Shown here in pieces: positions 7,546-29,411 of a stretch of 64,000 bases of DNA (position 1 is its first letter; each line of letters opens with the position of its first letter). Below the pieces are notes generated by a model that saw only the letters and a program-made list of their open reading frames with translations, was not told the origin of the DNA and did not search any database. The position numbers were made by a program, and so were the translations under genes. Location of the stretch: positions 1 to 64,000 of the forward strand of contig NZ_JAEHFY010000012.1 in the NCBI RefSeq assembly GCF_016623585.1. The letters run 5' to 3'. The stretch comes from Pedobacter segetis. GTDB lineage: Bacteria; Bacteroidota; Bacteroidia; Sphingobacteriales; Sphingobacteriaceae.

Positions 7546-8940
7546 ATGATCAAAATCTTTAAAAAAGCTCTTTTTACGATAGCTGTTATTTTAATTTTTA
7601 ACACCGTTAAAGCTCAAGATTCTTTAATGTTAAGAAATATCTATGATAATGCTTTAGTTAGGGGAGAAGCTTATGAAAACTTGAGGCATCTTTGTAAAAA
7701 TATTGGGCCACGGTTAAGTGGTTCTGCTAATGCACAAAAAGCAGTAGATTGGGGTAAAAAACTTATGGAGTCTTATGGGTTTGATAAAGTGTATTTACAG
7801 GAGTGTATGGTGCCACATTGGGTTAGGGGAGAAAAAGAGGTTGGGAAAATTATAAATGGGAAAACAGAAATCAATGTTCCTATTTGTGCATTGGGAATGT
7901 CTCCTGCAACTCCAAAAAACGGCTTAAAAGCAAAAATAATAGAGGTTAAGAGTTTAGAAGAATTAGCTTCACTCGGCGAAAGCCTGGTAAAAGGCAAAAT
8001 CGTGTTTTTTAATAGACCTTTTGATCAAAGATTTATAGAAACCGGTAGAGCATACGGAGCCGCAGGCGATCAAAGATTTAAAGGCCCGGCAGAGGCAGCA
8101 AAATATGGTGCAGTTGGTGTTATCGTAAGATCGCTTTCTAGCACTTTAGATGATTATCCCCATACAGGGACAACCATATTTCCTGAAGGATCAAAAAAAA
8201 TACCTGCAGCGGCAATTTCTACAAAAGCGGCAAACCAACTCAGCAATTTGTTAAGATTAAAAAAATTGCCAGAGATACAGTTTTACTTTAAACAAAATTG
8301 CCAACTTTTACCAGATGTGAAATCTTACAACGTGGTAGGAGAGATAACCGGGACAGAAAAGCCCAATGAATTTATTACGGTTGGAGGCCATTTAGATTCT
8401 TGGGATTTGGCAGAAGGTGCCCATGATGATGGTACCGGTGTGGTACAAGGAGTAGAAGTATTGAGAATTTATAAATCTTTGGGGCTAAAACCAAAACACG
8501 CTATTAGAGCGGTAATGTTTATGAACGAAGAAAATGGAGGAAGAGGTGGCGAGAAATATACAGAATTAGCGCAAAAAAATAAGGAAATCCATATTGCGGC
8601 CATAGAGTCTGATGGTGGCGGTTTTACGCCGAGGGGATTTAGTTTTCAAGATGTAACGCAAAAAGGTATTATAAAAATCAATGAGGATTGGAAGCATTTA
8701 TTTACCCCATATCTTGGCGATTTATTAACCATAGGAGGGAGCGGAAGCGATATTGAACCTCTTTCTGTTTATAAAGACGCAGTATTGATTGGTTTTAGAG
8801 CAGATTCTCAAAGATATTTTGATATACACCATACGCCAAATGATGTTTTTGAAAACGTGAACAAAAGAGAGTTAGAATTGGGGGCAGCATCTATGGCCTC
8901 TCTGGTTTATTTGATAGACAATTACGGTATCACTCATTAA
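7546..8940 (+). CDS. Secreted M28-family metallopeptidase (carboxypeptidase Q-like)
   Basis: A signal peptide (about 1-23, ending VKA) exports this dinuclear-zinc exopeptidase. An inserted PA-type region (about 120-260) precedes the catalytic core. Metal ligands can be read as His282 in GGHLDSWD, Asp294 in AHDDGTG, the Glu328-Glu329 pair in FMNEENGG, Asp356 in ESDGGG and the His428/429 pair near IHHTPND. Layout and length resemble plasma glutamate carboxypeptidase (PGCP/CPQ) dipeptidases. A role in periplasmic peptide scavenging is inferred. The MFS gene starts 9 bp downstream. Confidence 0.92.
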   Translation: MIKIFKKALFTIAVILIFNTVKAQDSLMLRNIYDNALVRGEAYENLRHLCKNIGPRLSGSANAQKAVDWGKKLMESYGFDKVYLQECMVPHWVRGEKEVGKIINGKTEINVPICALGMSPATPKNGLKAKIIEVKSLEELASLGESLVKGKIVFFNRPFDQRFIETGRAYGAAGDQRFKGPAEAAKYGAVGVIVRSLSSTLDDYPHTGTTIFPEGSKKIPAAAISTKAANQLSNLLRLKKLPEIQFYFKQNCQLLPDVKSYNVVGEITGTEKPNEFITVGGHLDSWDLAEGAHDDGTGVVQGVEVLRIYKSLGLKPKHAIRAVMFMNEENGGRGGEKYTELAQKNKEIHIAAIESDGGGFTPRGFSFQDVTQKGIIKINEDWKHLFTPYLGDLLTIGGSGSDIEPLSVYKDAVLIGFRADSQRYFDIHHTPNDVFENVNKRELELGAASMASLVYLIDNYGITH

Positions 8941-23848: not shown

Positions 23849-24748
23849 TTATTTATAAGCAGAGCCGTTAAGATGGTGCACCTGATCTATAAATTCTTGT
23901 ATGTTTTTGATAAAAATGGTGTTTGGGATAGGAGAGAAAGTATTACAAGAAATTTGTGCACCGGCCAAAATTAAAGGAGTATCATTAATTTTTTCTTTGA
24001 TCTTGTGGATCAGATCTTCTAATTTAATTTCTGAATTTGCGATGGTAAGCACCGTAAAAACAAAGTCAGGTTCATAATATTCTACTACCTCTCCTAGGCT
24101 TTCAAAGGGCATATCTTGCCCTAAATATAATGCCCTGTGCCCATTGTTTTTAAGAAGGTATTGCGCAAATAGCAAACCTACTTCGTGGTGTTCTTGTGGG
24201 GGTAAAAACAAGATGAAGCGTTTAGAGTTTTCGTTCTTGGCACTCTTTAGTTCATAAGTATCGTGAATTATTTTTTGTTCTATTTTTTGGGTGGCGAAAT
24301 GTTCATGCGCAGCATTTATAGTGCCTACTTGCCACATAAAGCCCACTTTGCGCATAAATGGGAAGATGATCTCACATATCGCTTTCTCCATTCCCAAATC
24401 GTTTACGCAACCGTTTAATACTTCATCAAACTCATGATCATCCATTTTTAACATGGCGTTTGATAGCATCTGGACTTGTACGTTGATATTATAGTGATCT
24501 TCTTGAAGTTTCTTTACCAATAGATTTATCTCGGCATTATCCATCTTGGATATCCTACTGATTTTGTAGCCGCTTTCATTTAAAGCGGCAATGTTTAAAA
24601 ACTTACAAAGATCATGATCATCATAATACCTGATGTTGGTTTCTGTACGTTTAGGGGTAAAAAAATTGTAACGCTGTTCCCAAACCCTTATGGTATGGGC
24701 TTTAATACCTGTTAAATTTTCAATATCACTAATAGAGAATTTTCTCAA
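23849..24748 (-). CDS. MerR-family regulator with B12-binding photosensory domain (CarH/LitR type)
   Basis: An N-terminal MerR winged helix (about 1-75, TGIKAHTIRVWEQRY) precedes a four-helix cap and a Rossmann cobalamin-binding domain. The hallmark Wx9EH motif is intact (Trp139, Glu149-His150), and the base-off axial-histidine motif ExHxxG is at Glu186, His188, Gly191. In CarH-type regulators adenosylcobalamin is photolysed, and light breaks the DNA-bound tetramer and relieves repression. The residue after Trp139 is Gln140, where Thermus CarH has the histidine that forms the light-state cobalt bond. It lies 73 bp downstream of the photolyase gene on the same strand, surrounded by light-related genes. 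Confidence 0.9.
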   Translation of the reverse strand: MRKFSISDIENLTGIKAHTIRVWEQRYNFFTPKRTETNIRYYDDHDLCKFLNIAALNESGYKISRISKMDNAEINLLVKKLQEDHYNINVQVQMLSNAMLKMDDHEFDEVLNGCVNDLGMEKAICEIIFPFMRKVGFMWQVGTINAAHEHFATQKIEQKIIHDTYELKSAKNENSKRFILFLPPQEHHEVGLLFAQYLLKNNGHRALYLGQDMPFESLGEVVEYYEPDFVFTVLTIANSEIKLEDLIHKIKEKINDTPLILAGAQISCNTFSPIPNTIFIKNIQEFIDQVHHLNGSAYK

Positions 24749-24794
24749 AACTTATGTTTTAACAATGTATTTGGTTTGGGTTATTTGTTTGGGT

Positions 24795-24817
24795 AACAAA
24801 TTTATTAACAGTTTGTT
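24795..24817. promoter_or_regulatory. Inverted repeat between photolyase and MerR-B12 genes, possible operator
   Basis: AACAAA and TTTGTT form a perfect 6-bp inverted repeat with an 11-bp gap, in the 73-bp spacer just before the regulator gene. It could be an autoregulatory MerR site or chance in A/T-rich DNA. Confidence 0.25.
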
Positions 24818-24821
24818 TATT

Positions 24822-26360
24822 TTACAATGAGTTTAAGTTTGATAGGTAATGATTGCCCTGGTTTACGATTGTATCTATTTCTGATTTGTCCATTTTTTCT
24901 AATAACCTGTACACCATCCCTATACGGGCATTTTTTTTCAATTTATCTTCATGTTTGATATAGAAATTCCAGTACAAACTATTAAACGGACAGGCTTTGT
25001 CTCCATGTCTTAGGTTTTTATCGTACTTGCAACCGCTGCAATAATTGCTCATTTTATTGATGTAATTGGCAGATGCAACATAGGGTTTAGAACCTATTAA
25101 ACCACCATCTGCAAATTGGCTCATGCCACGGGTGTTGGTTATCTGTACCCATTCTACGGCATCGGCATAAACGCCAAGGTACCAAGCATCCACTTCATTG
25201 GGGTTTGCGCCTATCAATAACGCAAAATTTCCGATTACCATTAACCGCTGGATATGATGGGCATAAGCATGGTCTAAAGAGTTATTGATGGCATATTTTA
25301 AACAATTCATTTTTACTTTGCCATCCCAAAACCAAGAAGGTAATTTGGTTTTATTATCCAAATAATTTTTTGAGGCAAAGGCCGGCATTTGGTCCCAATA
25401 AATTCCACGCATATATTCTCGCCAGCCGATCACCTGCCGTACAAAACCTTCTACCTGTGCAATATCGATCTCCTTTTTATTCGCCTGCCAAGTATCAATA
25501 ACCTGATCTACCACTTCTTTTGGAGAGATCATTTTTAGGTTTAAAGAAAAAGAAAGACAAGAATGGAAAAGCGTATGGTGTTCTTTTAGCATGGCATCTT
25601 CATATCTGCCAAACGATGGGAGCAACTCATCACAAAAATACTTTAGAACTTTTAATGCTTCTTTTCTGCTTGTTGGGTAAGGGAATTCTTTTGGTTTGAT
25701 GTTGCCGAAATAATCAACTTTAAGATCATCTAAAAGTTTAACAATATCAGAAACATCTTTTTTGAATAGTAGGGGGGCTTTTAGCGGATATTTACCATCG
25801 TATTTTTTTCTGTTTTCATGATCAAAGTTCCATTTATCGCCAAATGGTTCTAATTTATTATCAACCAGTAAATGGTGTTTTTTACGCATATCGCGGTAAA
25901 AGCTTTCCATTAAATATTGCTTTTTCCCTTTAAAAAAATCTTTTACGTCTTCACGGCTGGTGTAAAAATGTTCGGTATCAAAAACCTGTGTTTCAATTTC
26001 TAGGTTTTCGCAGATTTCTTTTATTTGTTGGTCTAAGCGATATTCATCTGGCAGTTGATATTCAAATTTTTCGATTGATAATTTTTCGATAAGGTTTTTT
26101 AGGTTTTCTTTAAAGTTTTGCTGATTATCCTCATCATCTAATCGAAAGTAAATGATTTGATGACCCTCATTTCTCAATTCTTCGGCAAAGTTTCTCATCG
26201 CCATAAAAAAACCGATTATTTTTTGGATATGATGCTTCACATATTGCTGTTCTTGCATCACTTCCATTATGATATATGTAACCTCATTATCTTTTTTATT
26301 AAACCAAGAATGATGATGGTTAAGCTGATCGCCTAAAATAAGTCGGAGTGTTTTTGCCAT
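24822..26360 (-). CDS. phrB: Fe-S bacterial cryptochrome/(6-4) photolyase (DPRP, PhrB type)
   Basis: This 512-residue flavoprotein has the N-terminal opening LRLILGDQLNHHHSWF of deoxyribodipyrimidine photolyase-related proteins. Four cysteines, Cys353, Cys441, Cys444 and Cys457, have spacings of 88, 3 and 13 residues, identical to those I recall for the [4Fe-4S] ligands of Agrobacterium PhrB. The C-terminal FAD domain contains GNFALLIGANPNEVDAW and NTRGMSQFADGG. It probably repairs (6-4) photoproducts with blue light. It heads a two-gene unit with the MerR-B12 regulator. Confidence 0.92.
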   Translation of the reverse strand: MAKTLRLILGDQLNHHHSWFNKKDNEVTYIIMEVMQEQQYVKHHIQKIIGFFMAMRNFAEELRNEGHQIIYFRLDDEDNQQNFKENLKNLIEKLSIEKFEYQLPDEYRLDQQIKEICENLEIETQVFDTEHFYTSREDVKDFFKGKKQYLMESFYRDMRKKHHLLVDNKLEPFGDKWNFDHENRKKYDGKYPLKAPLLFKKDVSDIVKLLDDLKVDYFGNIKPKEFPYPTSRKEALKVLKYFCDELLPSFGRYEDAMLKEHHTLFHSCLSFSLNLKMISPKEVVDQVIDTWQANKKEIDIAQVEGFVRQVIGWREYMRGIYWDQMPAFASKNYLDNKTKLPSWFWDGKVKMNCLKYAINNSLDHAYAHHIQRLMVIGNFALLIGANPNEVDAWYLGVYADAVEWVQITNTRGMSQFADGGLIGSKPYVASANYINKMSNYCSGCKYDKNLRHGDKACPFNSLYWNFYIKHEDKLKKNARIGMVYRLLEKMDKSEIDTIVNQGNHYLSNLNSL

Positions 26361-26373
26361 TTAGAATAAACAG

Positions 26374-26381
26374 CAAAGATT
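26374..26381 (-). promoter_or_regulatory. Possible -7 box of the photolyase promoter
   Basis: Minus-strand AATCTTTG, one mismatch from TAnnTTTG, lies 13 bp before the photolyase ATG, implying a very short leader. Confidence 0.3.
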
Positions 26382-26440
26382 GAAATTGTGTTTTGATATG
26401 AATCTAAAATTAAATAAGTTTAAAAAAAAATATCAAAAAA

Positions 26441-27445
26441 ATGAAAAATTTAAGTCGCATTTTAACTATAATTTGTCCCATTTTATTTTCATTCTCAGCA
26501 ATTGCACAAAGTAATTTTTCTTTTCAGAAAAAAATATCTTTAAAAGGAAGCGGTGGCTGGGATTATATGCTTTTAGATTCACAAAAAAGCAGATTGTTCG
26601 TTTCGCATGATGATAGAGTTCATGTAATTGATTTGAACTCTTACAAAGAAACAAAAACTATTAAAAATTTGCATGGTGCACATCATATAGAAATTGCCCC
26701 AACTTTTAATAAGCTATTTATATCTAACGGAGATAATAATACTGTAACTGTGTATAATTATAGCAGTTTAGACAGCATAACTACTATCGCAGTTGGAAAT
26801 GAAAATCCAGATCCAATGTGTTATGATGATTTTTCTAAGAAACTTTATGTGTTTTGTGATAACAATAAATCTGTAATCATAGACCCAAAAAACAATAAAA
26901 TAACAGGAAGTATCGCATTAGGAGGAGCACCTGATTTTGCTTTTTCTAATCATAAAGGATTTATTTATAATAATCTTGAAGGTTCTGATGAAACTATTAT
27001 TATTGATGTAAAGCAGCAAAAAGTTATTAAAAGATTTCCTTTACCAAAAGGTGCTGCACCAACCGGATTAGCTTTGGATGATCAAAACAAAAGGTTGTTT
27101 GCAATTTGTAGGGGAATTAATAAAATGGTGGTGCTAGATTCTGAAAAAGGTACTATGATTATGCAATTTCCAATTGGAGGAAATGACGATGGTATTCATT
27201 TTGACAAAGATCGTAAATTGATTTTTTGTTCTGCCGGTGCAGGAAAAGTTATTGTAATAAAACAATTATCGAAAGATAACTACGTGGTATCAAAACAATT
27301 TAATACCCATTTTGGTGCAAAAACAATGGAATATAATAAATCTAAAAACGAATTATATTTTTCTGCGGCAGATAGAGTTAAAAATTCGGATAAATTAAGC
27401 CCTGATAATTTTGGAGTTTATGTTTTTAAAATTACTGATAAATAA
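26441..27445 (+). CDS. Secreted YncE-like beta-propeller protein
   Basis: A signal peptide (about 1-22, ending AIAQ) is followed by repeated blades of the YVTN/YncE type, recognisable as spaced segments such as SRLFVSHDDRVHVIDL, KLFISNGDNNTVTVYN, KKLYVFCDNNKSVIID and KRLFAICRGINKMVVLD. Such periplasmic propellers bind partners or DNA; no catalytic residues are evident. It stands alone on the plus strand between two minus-strand light genes, and its base composition is visibly more A/T-rich than the flanking genes, so it may have been acquired separately. It ends 7 bp before the convergent cry-DASH stop. Confidence 0.85.
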   Translation: MKNLSRILTIICPILFSFSAIAQSNFSFQKKISLKGSGGWDYMLLDSQKSRLFVSHDDRVHVIDLNSYKETKTIKNLHGAHHIEIAPTFNKLFISNGDNNTVTVYNYSSLDSITTIAVGNENPDPMCYDDFSKKLYVFCDNNKSVIIDPKNNKITGSIALGGAPDFAFSNHKGFIYNNLEGSDETIIIDVKQQKVIKRFPLPKGAAPTGLALDDQNKRLFAICRGINKMVVLDSEKGTMIMQFPIGGNDDGIHFDKDRKLIFCSAGAGKVIVIKQLSKDNYVVSKQFNTHFGAKTMEYNKSKNELYFSAADRVKNSDKLSPDNFGVYVFKITDK

Positions 27446-27452
27446 TTTTAAT

Positions 27453-28754
27453 TTAATTTTCTAACCAAAGCTTTCTATACTCCCCTTTCGGATCATAATC
27501 ATCAGCTTGCTTTTCAATATTAAAATGGCGGTTTTCACGGGGATCGTTACCAACGCCGGCAACATAGGCCCAATTTCCCCAATTGCTCGCCGGGTTATAA
27601 TCGATCAGTTTTTCTTCAAAATAGGCAGCGCCCCAGGTCCAGTTTACCTTTAAATCTTTTACCAAGTAAGAAGCCACGTTTTGGCGGCCACGGTTGCTCA
27701 TAAAACCGGTTAAATTCAGCTCTTTCATATTGGCATCTATAAAGGGGATGCCAGTTTCGGCATTTTTCCATTTTTCGAAAAGTTCTTCTTGGTTTTCGGC
27801 GTGTTCATTTTCTTTGCCTTTAAAACCACCTTCCATAAAAAATTGGGTACCGTGTTTTTTGAACATAAAACGGAAATAATCTCGCCACAAAAGCTCAAAA
27901 ATCAGCCAATAGGTACTATCGTTTGCGCCACGCTCTTGTTCGTATTTTTTTATCTCCCAGTAAACTTCCCTTGCAGATAAACATCCGGCGGATAGCCAAG
28001 CAGAAAACTTTGAGCTATAATCTGCCCCAATCAACCCATTTCGGGTTTTTTTATAGGTTTTTAGTAAATCGGTATCCCACAGATAATATTTTAATCTTGC
28101 TAAACCTTCGGTTTCACCGCCCTTGAATTTTATAGCGGTGCGATGGTCTGTTCTATTATGCTCTGCCCCTAAATCTTCTAAACTTGGTAAAGTGGTTTCT
28201 TCTAAATCTTTAGGTACGGTAATTTTTTGAGGAGATTCAAAAGCGGGGCGTATGATACCTTCTCGCTCTGTTTTTTTACGAAAAACGGTAAATACATCTG
28301 GGATGTCTTTTATAGGGAAGGGCAGATCTTCTTTATGGTACATGGTATGCCCAATAAAATGTTTTAGGTTGATCTGCTTTTTCCAAAGGGCATCTTCTAC
28401 TTTTGAGGAAATATCTGTTTCTTCAGAAGCTACTTCACGGTGGTGATATACTTCATTAACGTTGTATTTTTCGCAGATCTGTGGGATAAGTTCTTCTGGA
28501 TTACCTTGTAATACCAGTAGATCTCCCCCTAATTTTTGTAACGATTTTTTAAGATCGGCAACGCTTTCTAACAGGAATTGGGCCCTAAAGCCCCCTGTTT
28601 TTTTGGTGTTAAAGATGGTTTCCCTAAAATAGCGAGGATCAAAAATGAAAACAGGAACTATGGTGGATGCTTTTTGGGTAGCTTCTAATAAAATTTCATT
28701 ATCATGTATGCGTAAATCATTTCTAAACCAAACAAGTATCGTTTTTTCGCTCAT
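27453..28754 (-). CDS. cry: DASH-family cryptochrome
   Basis: An N-terminal alpha/beta antenna domain (LVWFRNDLRIHDNEILLEA) is followed by an all-helical FAD domain containing FELLWRDYFRFM, NLTGFMSNRGRQNVASYL and NPASNWGNWAYVAGVGNDPREN, which identify the DASH class (single-strand or structured-DNA CPD repair, and signalling in some organisms). Length of 433 residues fits a bacterial Cry-DASH. The DUF2256 microprotein gene lies 37 bp upstream on the same strand, so the two are probably co-transcribed. Confidence 0.95.
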   Translation of the reverse strand: MSEKTILVWFRNDLRIHDNEILLEATQKASTIVPVFIFDPRYFRETIFNTKKTGGFRAQFLLESVADLKKSLQKLGGDLLVLQGNPEELIPQICEKYNVNEVYHHREVASEETDISSKVEDALWKKQINLKHFIGHTMYHKEDLPFPIKDIPDVFTVFRKKTEREGIIRPAFESPQKITVPKDLEETTLPSLEDLGAEHNRTDHRTAIKFKGGETEGLARLKYYLWDTDLLKTYKKTRNGLIGADYSSKFSAWLSAGCLSAREVYWEIKKYEQERGANDSTYWLIFELLWRDYFRFMFKKHGTQFFMEGGFKGKENEHAENQEELFEKWKNAETGIPFIDANMKELNLTGFMSNRGRQNVASYLVKDLKVNWTWGAAYFEEKLIDYNPASNWGNWAYVAGVGNDPRENRHFNIEKQADDYDPKGEYRKLWLEN

Positions 28755-28791
28755 TTTTTATCTTCTCAGTTTTCTTTTACAATATTGCTTA

Positions 28792-28944
28792 TTATTTAAT
28801 ATTTCGGCAAAGGTTTGAACAATATTTTACTTCGTCCCAACACTTTTCCCACTTTTTGCGCCAAGTAAATTCTTTTTGGCAAGTTAAACACACCTTTTTT
28901 GGTAGGTTGATTTTTTTTATTGTTATACCTTTTTGATTTAACAT
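28792..28944 (-). CDS. DUF2256 zinc-finger microprotein (50 residues)
   Basis: The minus-strand frame from ATG at 28944 to TAA at 28792 encodes a basic 50-residue protein. Two cysteine pairs, Cys19-x2-Cys22 and Cys42-x3-Cys46, frame a core with [18 protein letters not shown], the DUF2256 signature. This family is repeatedly found beside photolyase/cryptochrome genes, and here it is immediately upstream of cry-DASH. A zinc-ribbon RNA/DNA-binding or assembly role is a guess. It is easy to miss because of its size. Confidence 0.88.
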
Positions 28945-28989
28945 TAGGTTAGATTTCTTTTGGTTAGACGATAAACATTGTTAATTGCT

Positions 28990-29084
28990 GCATTAGGGAT
29001 TGAAGCGGCATCCTTTTTATGCAAATAGCCGTTTTGCAAATGGCATAAAAAGATATAGCGGAAAGCCCGCCCGAATGCCCTAAT
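28990..29084. repeat. Dispersed palindromic element, copy 1
   Basis: About 95 bp bounded by ATTAGGG (28992) and CCCTAAT (29078), a perfect 7-bp terminal inverted repeat. Its core is a hairpin TTTTTATGC...GCATAAAAA. The left end GCATTAGGGATTGAAGCGG is the exact reverse complement of 46371-46389, and the right half AGATATAGCGGAAAGCCC resembles the copy at 61185-61333. Confidence 0.8.
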
Positions 29085-29123
29085 TTTTATTAAACAATAG
29101 AAGCTAAAAGATGTTTGTAATGG

Positions 29124-29411
29124 ATGAAAAGGGATTTTAAAGATCTAACAGATAGAGAGACGGATAGGATCATAGAAATGGCATGGGAGGACCGTACGCC
29201 TTTTGAGGCCATAGAATTACAGTTTGGTTTGCCAGAAAAGGATGTGATTAGGTTGATGAGAAGGGAACTGAAGCCCAATAGTTGGCGTTTGTGGCGAGAA
29301 AGGGCGCACCAAGTTTCGCACAAGCATCTGAAGAAAAGGAGTGATGATATTGGACGTTTTAAATGTACCTTACAAAGGCAAATTACTTTAAACAAAATCT
29401 CTAAAAGATAA
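29124..29411 (+). CDS. TIGR03643 (DUF2805) family protein
   Basis: A 95-residue basic protein beginning MKRDFKDLTDRETDRIIEMAW, with a helix-turn-helix-like stretch PFEAIELQFGLPEKDVIRLMRR and a conserved PNSWRLWRERA segment. From memory this is the TIGR03643/DUF2805 family, which often co-occurs with cryptochrome and DUF2256 genes and has no known function; the fold suggests DNA binding. It is divergent from the DUF2256/cry-DASH pair and ends 1 bp from the convergent rluF stop. Confidence 0.85.
   Translation: MKRDFKDLTDRETDRIIEMAWEDRTPFEAIELQFGLPEKDVIRLMRRELKPNSWRLWRERAHQVSHKHLKKRSDDIGRFKCTLQRQITLNKISKR

Follow-up and report, generated by a model that had tools for sequence, protein, structure and literature searches.

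A conserved photorepair gene unit in Pedobacter segetis with a CarH-like regulator and a shared inverted repeat as its candidate operator

We analysed 64,000 nucleotides of Pedobacter segetis DNA (contig NZ_JAEHFY010000012.1, positions 1 to 64,000; hereafter the window), in which a 5.6-kb island of six genes spans 23849–29411. Five of the six genes belong to light-linked families: a CarH-like MerR regulator, an Fe-S photolyase, a DASH cryptochrome and two small proteins, DUF2256 and DUF2805/TIGR03643. The sixth (26441–27445) encodes a YncE-like propeller, for which we know of no link to light. The island is a real, conserved photorepair unit, and an inverted repeat, wAACA-N15/16-TGTTw, newly described here, is common to the upstream regions of CarH, the Fe-S photolyase and DUF2256/DUF2805. 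All six open reading frames lie where a first-pass annotation, made from the letters, had placed them, and its five light-linked families are confirmed by profile matches above cut-offs, with solved relatives for three. The genes and repeats are as follows.

23849–24748, minus strand: CarH-like MerR regulator with a helix-turn-helix (HTH), a four-helix bundle and a Rossmann domain; last gene of the predicted operon
24794–24818, unstranded: inverted repeat TAACA-N15-TGTTT, putative operator, upstream of CarH
24822–26360, minus strand: Fe-S bacterial (6-4)-type photolyase, FeS-BCP/CryPro (PF04244)
26368–26393, unstranded: inverted repeat AAACA-N16-TGTTT, directly upstream of the Fe-S photolyase
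26441–27445, plus strand: YncE/YVTN beta-propeller, between DASH and FeS-BCP, outside the conserved unit
27453–28754, minus strand: DASH cryptochrome (TIGR02765)
28792–28944, minus strand: DUF2256 (PF10013), which opens the predicted operon; 50 residues, four cysteines, TRASH zinc clan
29092–29116, unstranded: inverted repeat AAACA-N15-TGTTT between the divergent DUF2256 and DUF2805 genes, at −32 to −8 relative to the start of DUF2805
29124–29411, plus strand: DUF2805/TIGR03643 (PF10985), 95 residues, with a predicted HTH-like core (about residues 10–60) and a conserved basic tail

The two photolyase-family genes are assigned by strong matches. The Fe-S photolyase matches PF04244 at 262.8 bits, and its closest solved relative is the FeS-BCP (6-4) photolyase of PDB entry 7ykn (541.9 bits, E 1.6e-161), to which it aligns over nearly its full length (residues 4–512). 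All four cysteines looked for, at 353, 441, 444 and 457, are present and are cysteines in 7ykn as well; going by the ligand positions in PhrB, these are the four of the Fe-S cluster. The DASH cryptochrome scores 582.9 bits against TIGR02765 (cut-off 317.05), and its solved relatives are DASH-type proteins (best E 2e-149).

The regulator combines MerR_1 and B12-binding_2 domains, its N-terminal MerR winged helix matching PF13411 at 58.6 bits (cut-off 21.6), and its closest solved relative is CarH of Thermus (E 2e-18); PF02310 is not among its Pfam matches. The Wx9EH motif is present at residues 139–150 (WQVGTINAAHEH at 139), as is the ExHxxG stretch with the lower axial histidine (EHHEVG, residues 186–191, aligned to Thermus CarH). 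Across 65 Bacteroidota homologues (loci L149–L168 and L188–L231), Wx9EH is kept in 56 and a D/ExHxx[GPS] stretch in 55. The best NCBIfam match of the window's protein is the CarH equivalog NF052513, at 104.2 bits and far below the cut-off of 400. Its genome holds one such regulator at E 0.001 and a cobalamin adenosyltransferase gene.

Both small proteins are firmly placed in their families. DUF2256 matches PF10013 at 71.1 bits (cut-off 25) and carries a CxxC...CSxxC pattern, the four cysteines of which are invariant in an alignment of 34 sequences (33 of 39 references and the window's own). Its model is a small hairpin-and-helix domain with a predicted local distance difference test (pLDDT) score of 81; its nearest Foldseek matches, YacG and an FCS finger, are not significant (E 0.9 and 2). 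DUF2805 scores 118.7 bits against PF10985 and 112.1 bits against TIGR03643 (cut-offs 22.5 and 66.55). It was aligned with 63 relatives (9 of the 80 loci described below gave no reference by the motif rule and 8 more were excluded), and no Protein Data Bank sequence matched it up to E 5. Its model has helices at 10–22, 27–34, 38–48 and 51–69, followed by the conserved basic tail at low confidence; structural matches are weak (Foldseek E of at least 0.68, VIA Z of at most 5.5) and give no confident fold.

The unit is older than the window's genome. In Pedobacter psychrophilus (L039) and a Sphingobacteriales metagenome-assembled genome (L041), DUF2256, DASH, the Fe-S photolyase and CarH follow one another in this order on one strand, with DUF2805/TIGR03643 divergent from them. 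In a third relative (L190, the CarH locus in the genome of L040), CarH again adjoins the Fe-S photolyase and comes after it. Because no propeller gene stands between DASH and the Fe-S photolyase in L039 or L041, the propeller at 26441–27445 appears to have been inserted here, splitting the operon. A tree of the 65 CarH homologues groups the four operon-borne proteins with a single sister at 100/100 support. In the rest of the phylum sample, crtB lies within about 2.6 kb of the CarH homologue in 17 of 20 loci; a regulator that is usually carotenoid-linked is therefore photolyase-linked in this group.

Beyond these relatives, the small families travel with photolyases, as the survey of co-occurrence suggested by the first-pass annotation now bears out. 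Profile searches of 118 Bacteroidota genomes, with DUF2256 counted above its cut-off, found DUF2805, DUF2256 and PF04244 in 34 genomes each. DUF2256 and PF04244 occur together in 32 of the genomes (odds ratio 656), DUF2805 and PF04244 in 28 (odds ratio 61), and DUF2805 and DUF2256 likewise in 28; the genomes are related and were treated as independent, and p-values for this survey and for the repeat are optimistic. Taking photolyases down to 66.6 bits, DUF2256 lies within 10 kb of one in 28 of the 34 genomes with both, and DUF2805 in 13 of 34 (a DUF2256 match below the cut-off in G011 is left out of the presence counts and kept in the distance lists). CarH, counted as rows of at least 100 bits (24 rows in 22 genomes, with weaker rows excluded, three of 80–98 bits from G062 and G051 among them), occurs in 17 of the 34 genomes with DUF2805 versus 5 of the 84 without. 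Outside Bacteroidota, coverage comprised plasmid records and 14 control genomes; among the latter, DUF2256 was found in two, both with PF04244, PF04244 in three and DUF2805 in none.

A separate genome scan kept 80 DUF2805 loci out of at least 585 found, with flanks of at most 8 kb that often ended at contig ends, so that flank counts are lower bounds. At least 43 of these loci have a photolyase in the flank, at least 40 have DUF2256 and at least 50 have either, and 29 of 40 DUF2256 genes lie on the same strand as a photolyase and within 300 bp of it. By title, the loci are from Bacteroidota except for L061 (uncultured bacterium) and L068 (Sphingomonadales), the latter judged to be Bacteroidota from its neighbours and GC content. 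A CarH homologue was found in 57 of 65 genomes tested out of the 80, the first 15 of the 65 having been picked because they showed the repeat or a divergent arrangement. Together, these counts support the view that the DUF2256 and DUF2805 families belong with photolyases.

The inverted repeat was first spotted as AAACA-N15-TGTTT in the divergent DUF2256/DUF2805 gaps of the relatives. The island holds three copies in 5.6 kb, against 0.10 expected on the assumption that N16 is as common as N15, and the window outside the island holds one copy in 58 kb. The three island copies stand upstream of 26360, 28944 and 29124, where binding by the MerR-B12 protein had been guessed at in the first pass, and also of 24748. 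The copy at 24794–24818 has an exact counterpart in L039 and counterparts with one mismatch in L041 and L190; for the copy at 26368–26393, L039 also has one and L041 has one with a single mismatch.

Upstream of DUF2805, AAACA-N14-16-TGTTT is found in 9 of 80 cases (window included), against 0.065 expected from shuffles, and in 8 of the 9 it sits at −32 to −34. Of 10 named divergent loci, 6 have a gap of only 39–41 bp that contains little besides the repeat. With the exact repeat defined by an A/T outer base and a spacer of 15 or 16, 14 of 80 DUF2805 and 8 of 41 DUF2256 upstream regions carry it, compared with 9 of the 695 remaining genes in these loci (L046, which has in-frame stops in DUF2805, was skipped in the first of these tests and counted in the second). 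For CarH, the exact repeat precedes 3 of 20 genes from the phylum sample and 7 of 12 from the genomes that supplied DUF2805 loci; over all CarH promoters the count is 14 of 65, versus 9 of 693 controls. Outward-facing and re-spaced control patterns gave 0 or 1 match per gene set.

An unbiased scan of 6,912 inverted 4-mer dyads with spacers of 0–26 returned the same element. AACA-N15-TGTT ranks first of 6,912 upstream of both DUF2805 (15/79, p 1e-11) and DUF2256 (9/40, p 3e-8), being present in 12 control upstream regions in these two scans, and third for the CarH homologues (17/65 versus 12/693, p 2e-15). The two dyads ranked above it for CarH, TTGT-N24-ACAA and TGTT-N22-AACA, were set aside as largely promoter-like TTTGTTTA together with the first carH codons: 17 of the 25 rows listed for them lie at −44, most reading ATGAACAA there. 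The DUF2805 and DUF2256 upstream sets overlap, since divergent gaps are common to both; the CarH set has almost no such overlap with either. Spacing is sharp, with 11 matches at N15, 2 at N16 and 0 or 1 at each other spacer from 8 to 23. The DUF2805 loci that bear the repeat are titled Pedobacter/Sphingobacteriales, Chitinophaga, Cytophagales, Emticicia, Arcicella, Saprospiraceae and Bacteroidetes, with L068 in addition. At the level of sequence, this distribution supports a single putative CarH-type regulon.

The gap between DUF2256 and DUF2805 also contains a Flavo-1 RNA (RF01705, 57 bits) at 28982–29076 on the plus strand, and the same gap of L039 seems to hold a diverged copy. We rejected this RNA as a specific regulator of DUF2805: scoring 150 of 978 candidates gave at least 44 Flavo-1 matches in the genome at E ≤ 0.001, of which at least 31 exceed the cut-off.

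Other neighbours of DUF2805 recur across its loci. Flavin reductase (20 loci), short-chain dehydrogenase (18), GTP cyclohydrolase I (11) and 6-pyruvoyl-tetrahydropterin synthase (9) are among them, and together they fit a photoprotection island. Within 600 bp of DUF2805 we also observed an AlkB-type dioxygenase in 6 loci, an S1/P1 nuclease in 10 and DUF2452 in 9 (L071, L044 and similar loci). In L047, L049, L051 and similar loci, DUF2805 is followed after a few base pairs by a photolyase-like protein that scores weakly as DASH and may belong to the uncharacterised family of PMC9239080.

Plasmids carry related sets. On two Acinetobacter plasmids (L031 and L032), DUF2805, DUF2256 and the Fe-S photolyase are adjacent, rearranged relative to the window and followed by nudC and a lipocalin gene; one of the two adds a set of desaturase, flavin adenine dinucleotide (FAD) oxidoreductase, DUF1365 and cyclopropane synthase genes. 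Among the Acinetobacter plasmid records listed, 12 have DUF2805 and 11 the Fe-S photolyase, about 170 bp apart in the 8 plasmids with coordinates for both. In our own reading, the Acinetobacter set may resemble the photolyase, furan-fatty-acid and folate set that is light-induced in Pseudomonas (PMC9758184). The copy on a Vibrio pelagius plasmid has photolyase and flavin reductase genes no more than 4 kb away. No annotated photolyase was found within 6–8 kb of DUF2805 on the Pseudoalteromonas, Nostoc and Spirosoma plasmids examined, or of DUF2256 on the Pantoea and Erwinia plasmids examined. The Spirosoma plasmid of L036 has a degenerate DUF2805 with in-frame stops at 8001–8252, which was excluded.

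Joint regulation of the photorepair unit thus has good computational support, and we consider it probable that DUF2256, DASH, the Fe-S photolyase and CarH form a photorepair operon that is controlled, together with the divergent DUF2805, by one CarH-like repressor. In darkness this MerR protein, presumably carrying adenosylcobalamin, would bind the wAACA-N15/16-TGTTw repeats, which in this model overlap the promoters of DUF2256/DUF2805, the Fe-S photolyase and carH itself. Light would destroy or release the complex, and both photolyases and both small proteins would then be produced together. The zinc protein DUF2256, encoded beside photolyase genes, most likely docks on or matures the photolyase. 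For DUF2805, with its HTH-like fold and basic tail, a function at the DNA is most likely, either in co-regulation or in assisting repair. Only tentatively do we extend this to the phylum, where a branch of CarH proteins devoid of the light-state histidine may control photorepair genes and, in other members, carotenoid genes through wAACA-N15-TGTTw, with DUF2256 and DUF2805 as light-made accessories of the Fe-S (6-4) photolyase.

Several observations weigh against this regulatory proposal. The single shared regulon proposed in the first pass is favoured by the repeat common to the unit's promoters, but most genomes lack the exact form: it is missing from 66 of 80 DUF2805 and 51 of 65 CarH upstream regions, and it is not among the top dyads of the DASH and FeS-BCP upstream sets (exact in 2/56 and 2/29). 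The window's own genome has 36 occurrences of the N15 pattern versus 47 for the control; at this chance level genome-wide, the regulon must be small. In the same genome, the crtI/crtB gap has the repeat only with two mismatches, and the second photolyase has none upstream. The operators known for CarH consist of 11-bp direct repeats (PMC9304148, PMC8156234), and a search of nine regions for the Thermus-type operator (11-bp direct repeats nAnnTnnACAn) found none above shuffles. The grouping with CarH, although its order is kept in two relatives, is not general either: of 22 CarH genomes, 2 have CarH no further than 10 kb from DUF2805, 2 have it that close to DUF2256, and 3 to either, the window's own genome included.

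The regulator itself departs from CarH in its motifs. It lacks SxT/V and GG, with FTVLT and LAGAQ at those positions, and is therefore filed as CarH-like rather than as CarH; and it has a glutamine where Thermus CarH has His132, the upper ligand of the light state. The earlier assignment as a B12 photoregulator accordingly stands for its domains, Wx9EH and the lower-ligand histidine, and B12 photosensing is something we can only infer, because the light-state histidine and the SxT/GG part are missing. Many CarH proteins, though not all, have that histidine, as do many myxobacterial homologues (PMC9304148); none of the 56 Bacteroidota homologues with Wx9EH has it after the tryptophan (the other nine were left unjudged). 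The H132A variant of Thermus CarH mostly remains tetrameric in light, with an earlier report cited in the same paper disagreeing (PMC10442372).

Given these departures, the regulator might not use B12 or light directly but answer another photoreceptor or a redox signal, like class II LitR, which would be compatible with a shared regulon. The uniform absence of the light-state histidine from those 56 homologues and the incomplete SxT/GG part of the window's protein point this way, as does the class II LitR of Pseudomonas, which works through a LOV protein (PMC9758184); the widespread retention of Wx9EH (56/65) and D/ExHxx[GPS] (55/65) and the cobalamin adenosyltransferase in the genome make it rather doubtful. 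The repeat could also be the operator of DUF2805, acting as a small HTH repressor, with CarH as a passenger or a target. DUF2805 has the HTH-like core (block-mean pLDDT 86–93 over residues 11–60), its structural matches, though weak, include DNA-binding HTH proteins, it is divergent from the operon in a classic repressor layout, and the repeat lies next to it at a nearly fixed position. We nevertheless regard this as unlikely. A copy before carH itself and one before CarH in G007 (L157), where no DUF2805 was found, favour binding by CarH. DUF2805 upstream regions carry the repeat in 3 of 15 CarH-bearing versus 0 of 15 CarH-free genomes, a difference that is not significant (p 0.22; 30 of the 34 DUF2805 genomes covered), and where DUF2805 is preceded by the repeat, 13 of 13 genomes tested have CarH, but so do 44 of 52 where it is not.

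Alternatively, the genes might cluster for their joint usefulness under ultraviolet (UV) light, with no shared regulator and with the roles of the two small families lying elsewhere, in zinc, RNA or nicotinamide adenine dinucleotide (NAD) metabolism. Consistent with this, 30 of the 80 DUF2805 loci lack both a photolyase and DUF2256 in the available flanks of at most 8 kb on each side, 6 of 34 DUF2805 genomes lack the Fe-S photolyase, and other neighbours of DUF2805 are the AlkB-type dioxygenase, S1/P1 nuclease and DUF2452. PMC6856373 lists a fusion of DUF2805 with NudC, and metagenomic DUF2805 correlates with translation domains in PMC3597751. Such an account is the least probable of those considered here, in view of the odds ratios for the Fe-S photolyase (61 to 656), a trio that is rearranged yet still together on Acinetobacter plasmids, and a repeat shared by the unit's genes.

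If the photorepair operon is indeed under one CarH-like repressor, DUF2256 and DUF2805, which are widespread and so far without a function, gain a testable context as photolyase partners in a light regulon, and a candidate operator for a Bacteroidota branch of CarH would make its regulon readable from genomes. The missing light-state histidine raises the question of a different light-response chemistry in these regulators. In the literature searched, with subscription papers mostly outside it, DUF2256, DUF2805 or TIGR03643 are named in four papers, whose relevant passages make no connection to photolyases, and among the top-ranked titles and abstract openings none concerns a Bacteroidota CarH operator or a photolyase module of this kind.

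Parts of the proposed system have counterparts elsewhere. DUF2256 falls, with FCS-type zinc fingers, in the TRASH clan (PMC4047054), and the best matches of its model are YacG and an FCS finger; these matches are weak, and there is no evidence of gyrase binding. Synechococcus PCC 7335 also has two photolyases in one UV-inducible operon, but that operon consists of two genes, and no small proteins or local regulator are described in the available text (PMC9649867). MerR/LitR-type regulators are reported to induce photolyases in light in Vibrio cholerae (PMC5241685) and Pseudomonas (PMC9758184). Like the window's unit as we interpret it, the Pseudomonas (PplR/PmlR) and V. cholerae regulons join a MerR-family regulator to light-induced photolyase or cryptochrome genes, and they include unknown genes and, in Pseudomonas, folE; DUF2256 and DUF2805 are not named in the parts of those two papers available. 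Unlike the window's protein, class II LitR of Pseudomonas works together with a LOV protein and has no B12-type Rossmann domain, and its site upstream of folM is TGTACA-N12-GGTATA.

The closest comparison is with CarH/LitR of Thermus, Bacillus and Myxococcus (PMC8156234, PMC9304148), with which the window's regulator shares the MerR HTH, Wx9EH and the lower-ligand histidine. By contrast, it has no histidine after the tryptophan and no intact SxT/GG, and its candidate operator is inverted with a 15-bp spacer rather than built from 11-bp direct repeats. As in those regulons, the regulator adjoins its putative targets, but here it is linked to photolyases and two DUF families instead of crt genes.

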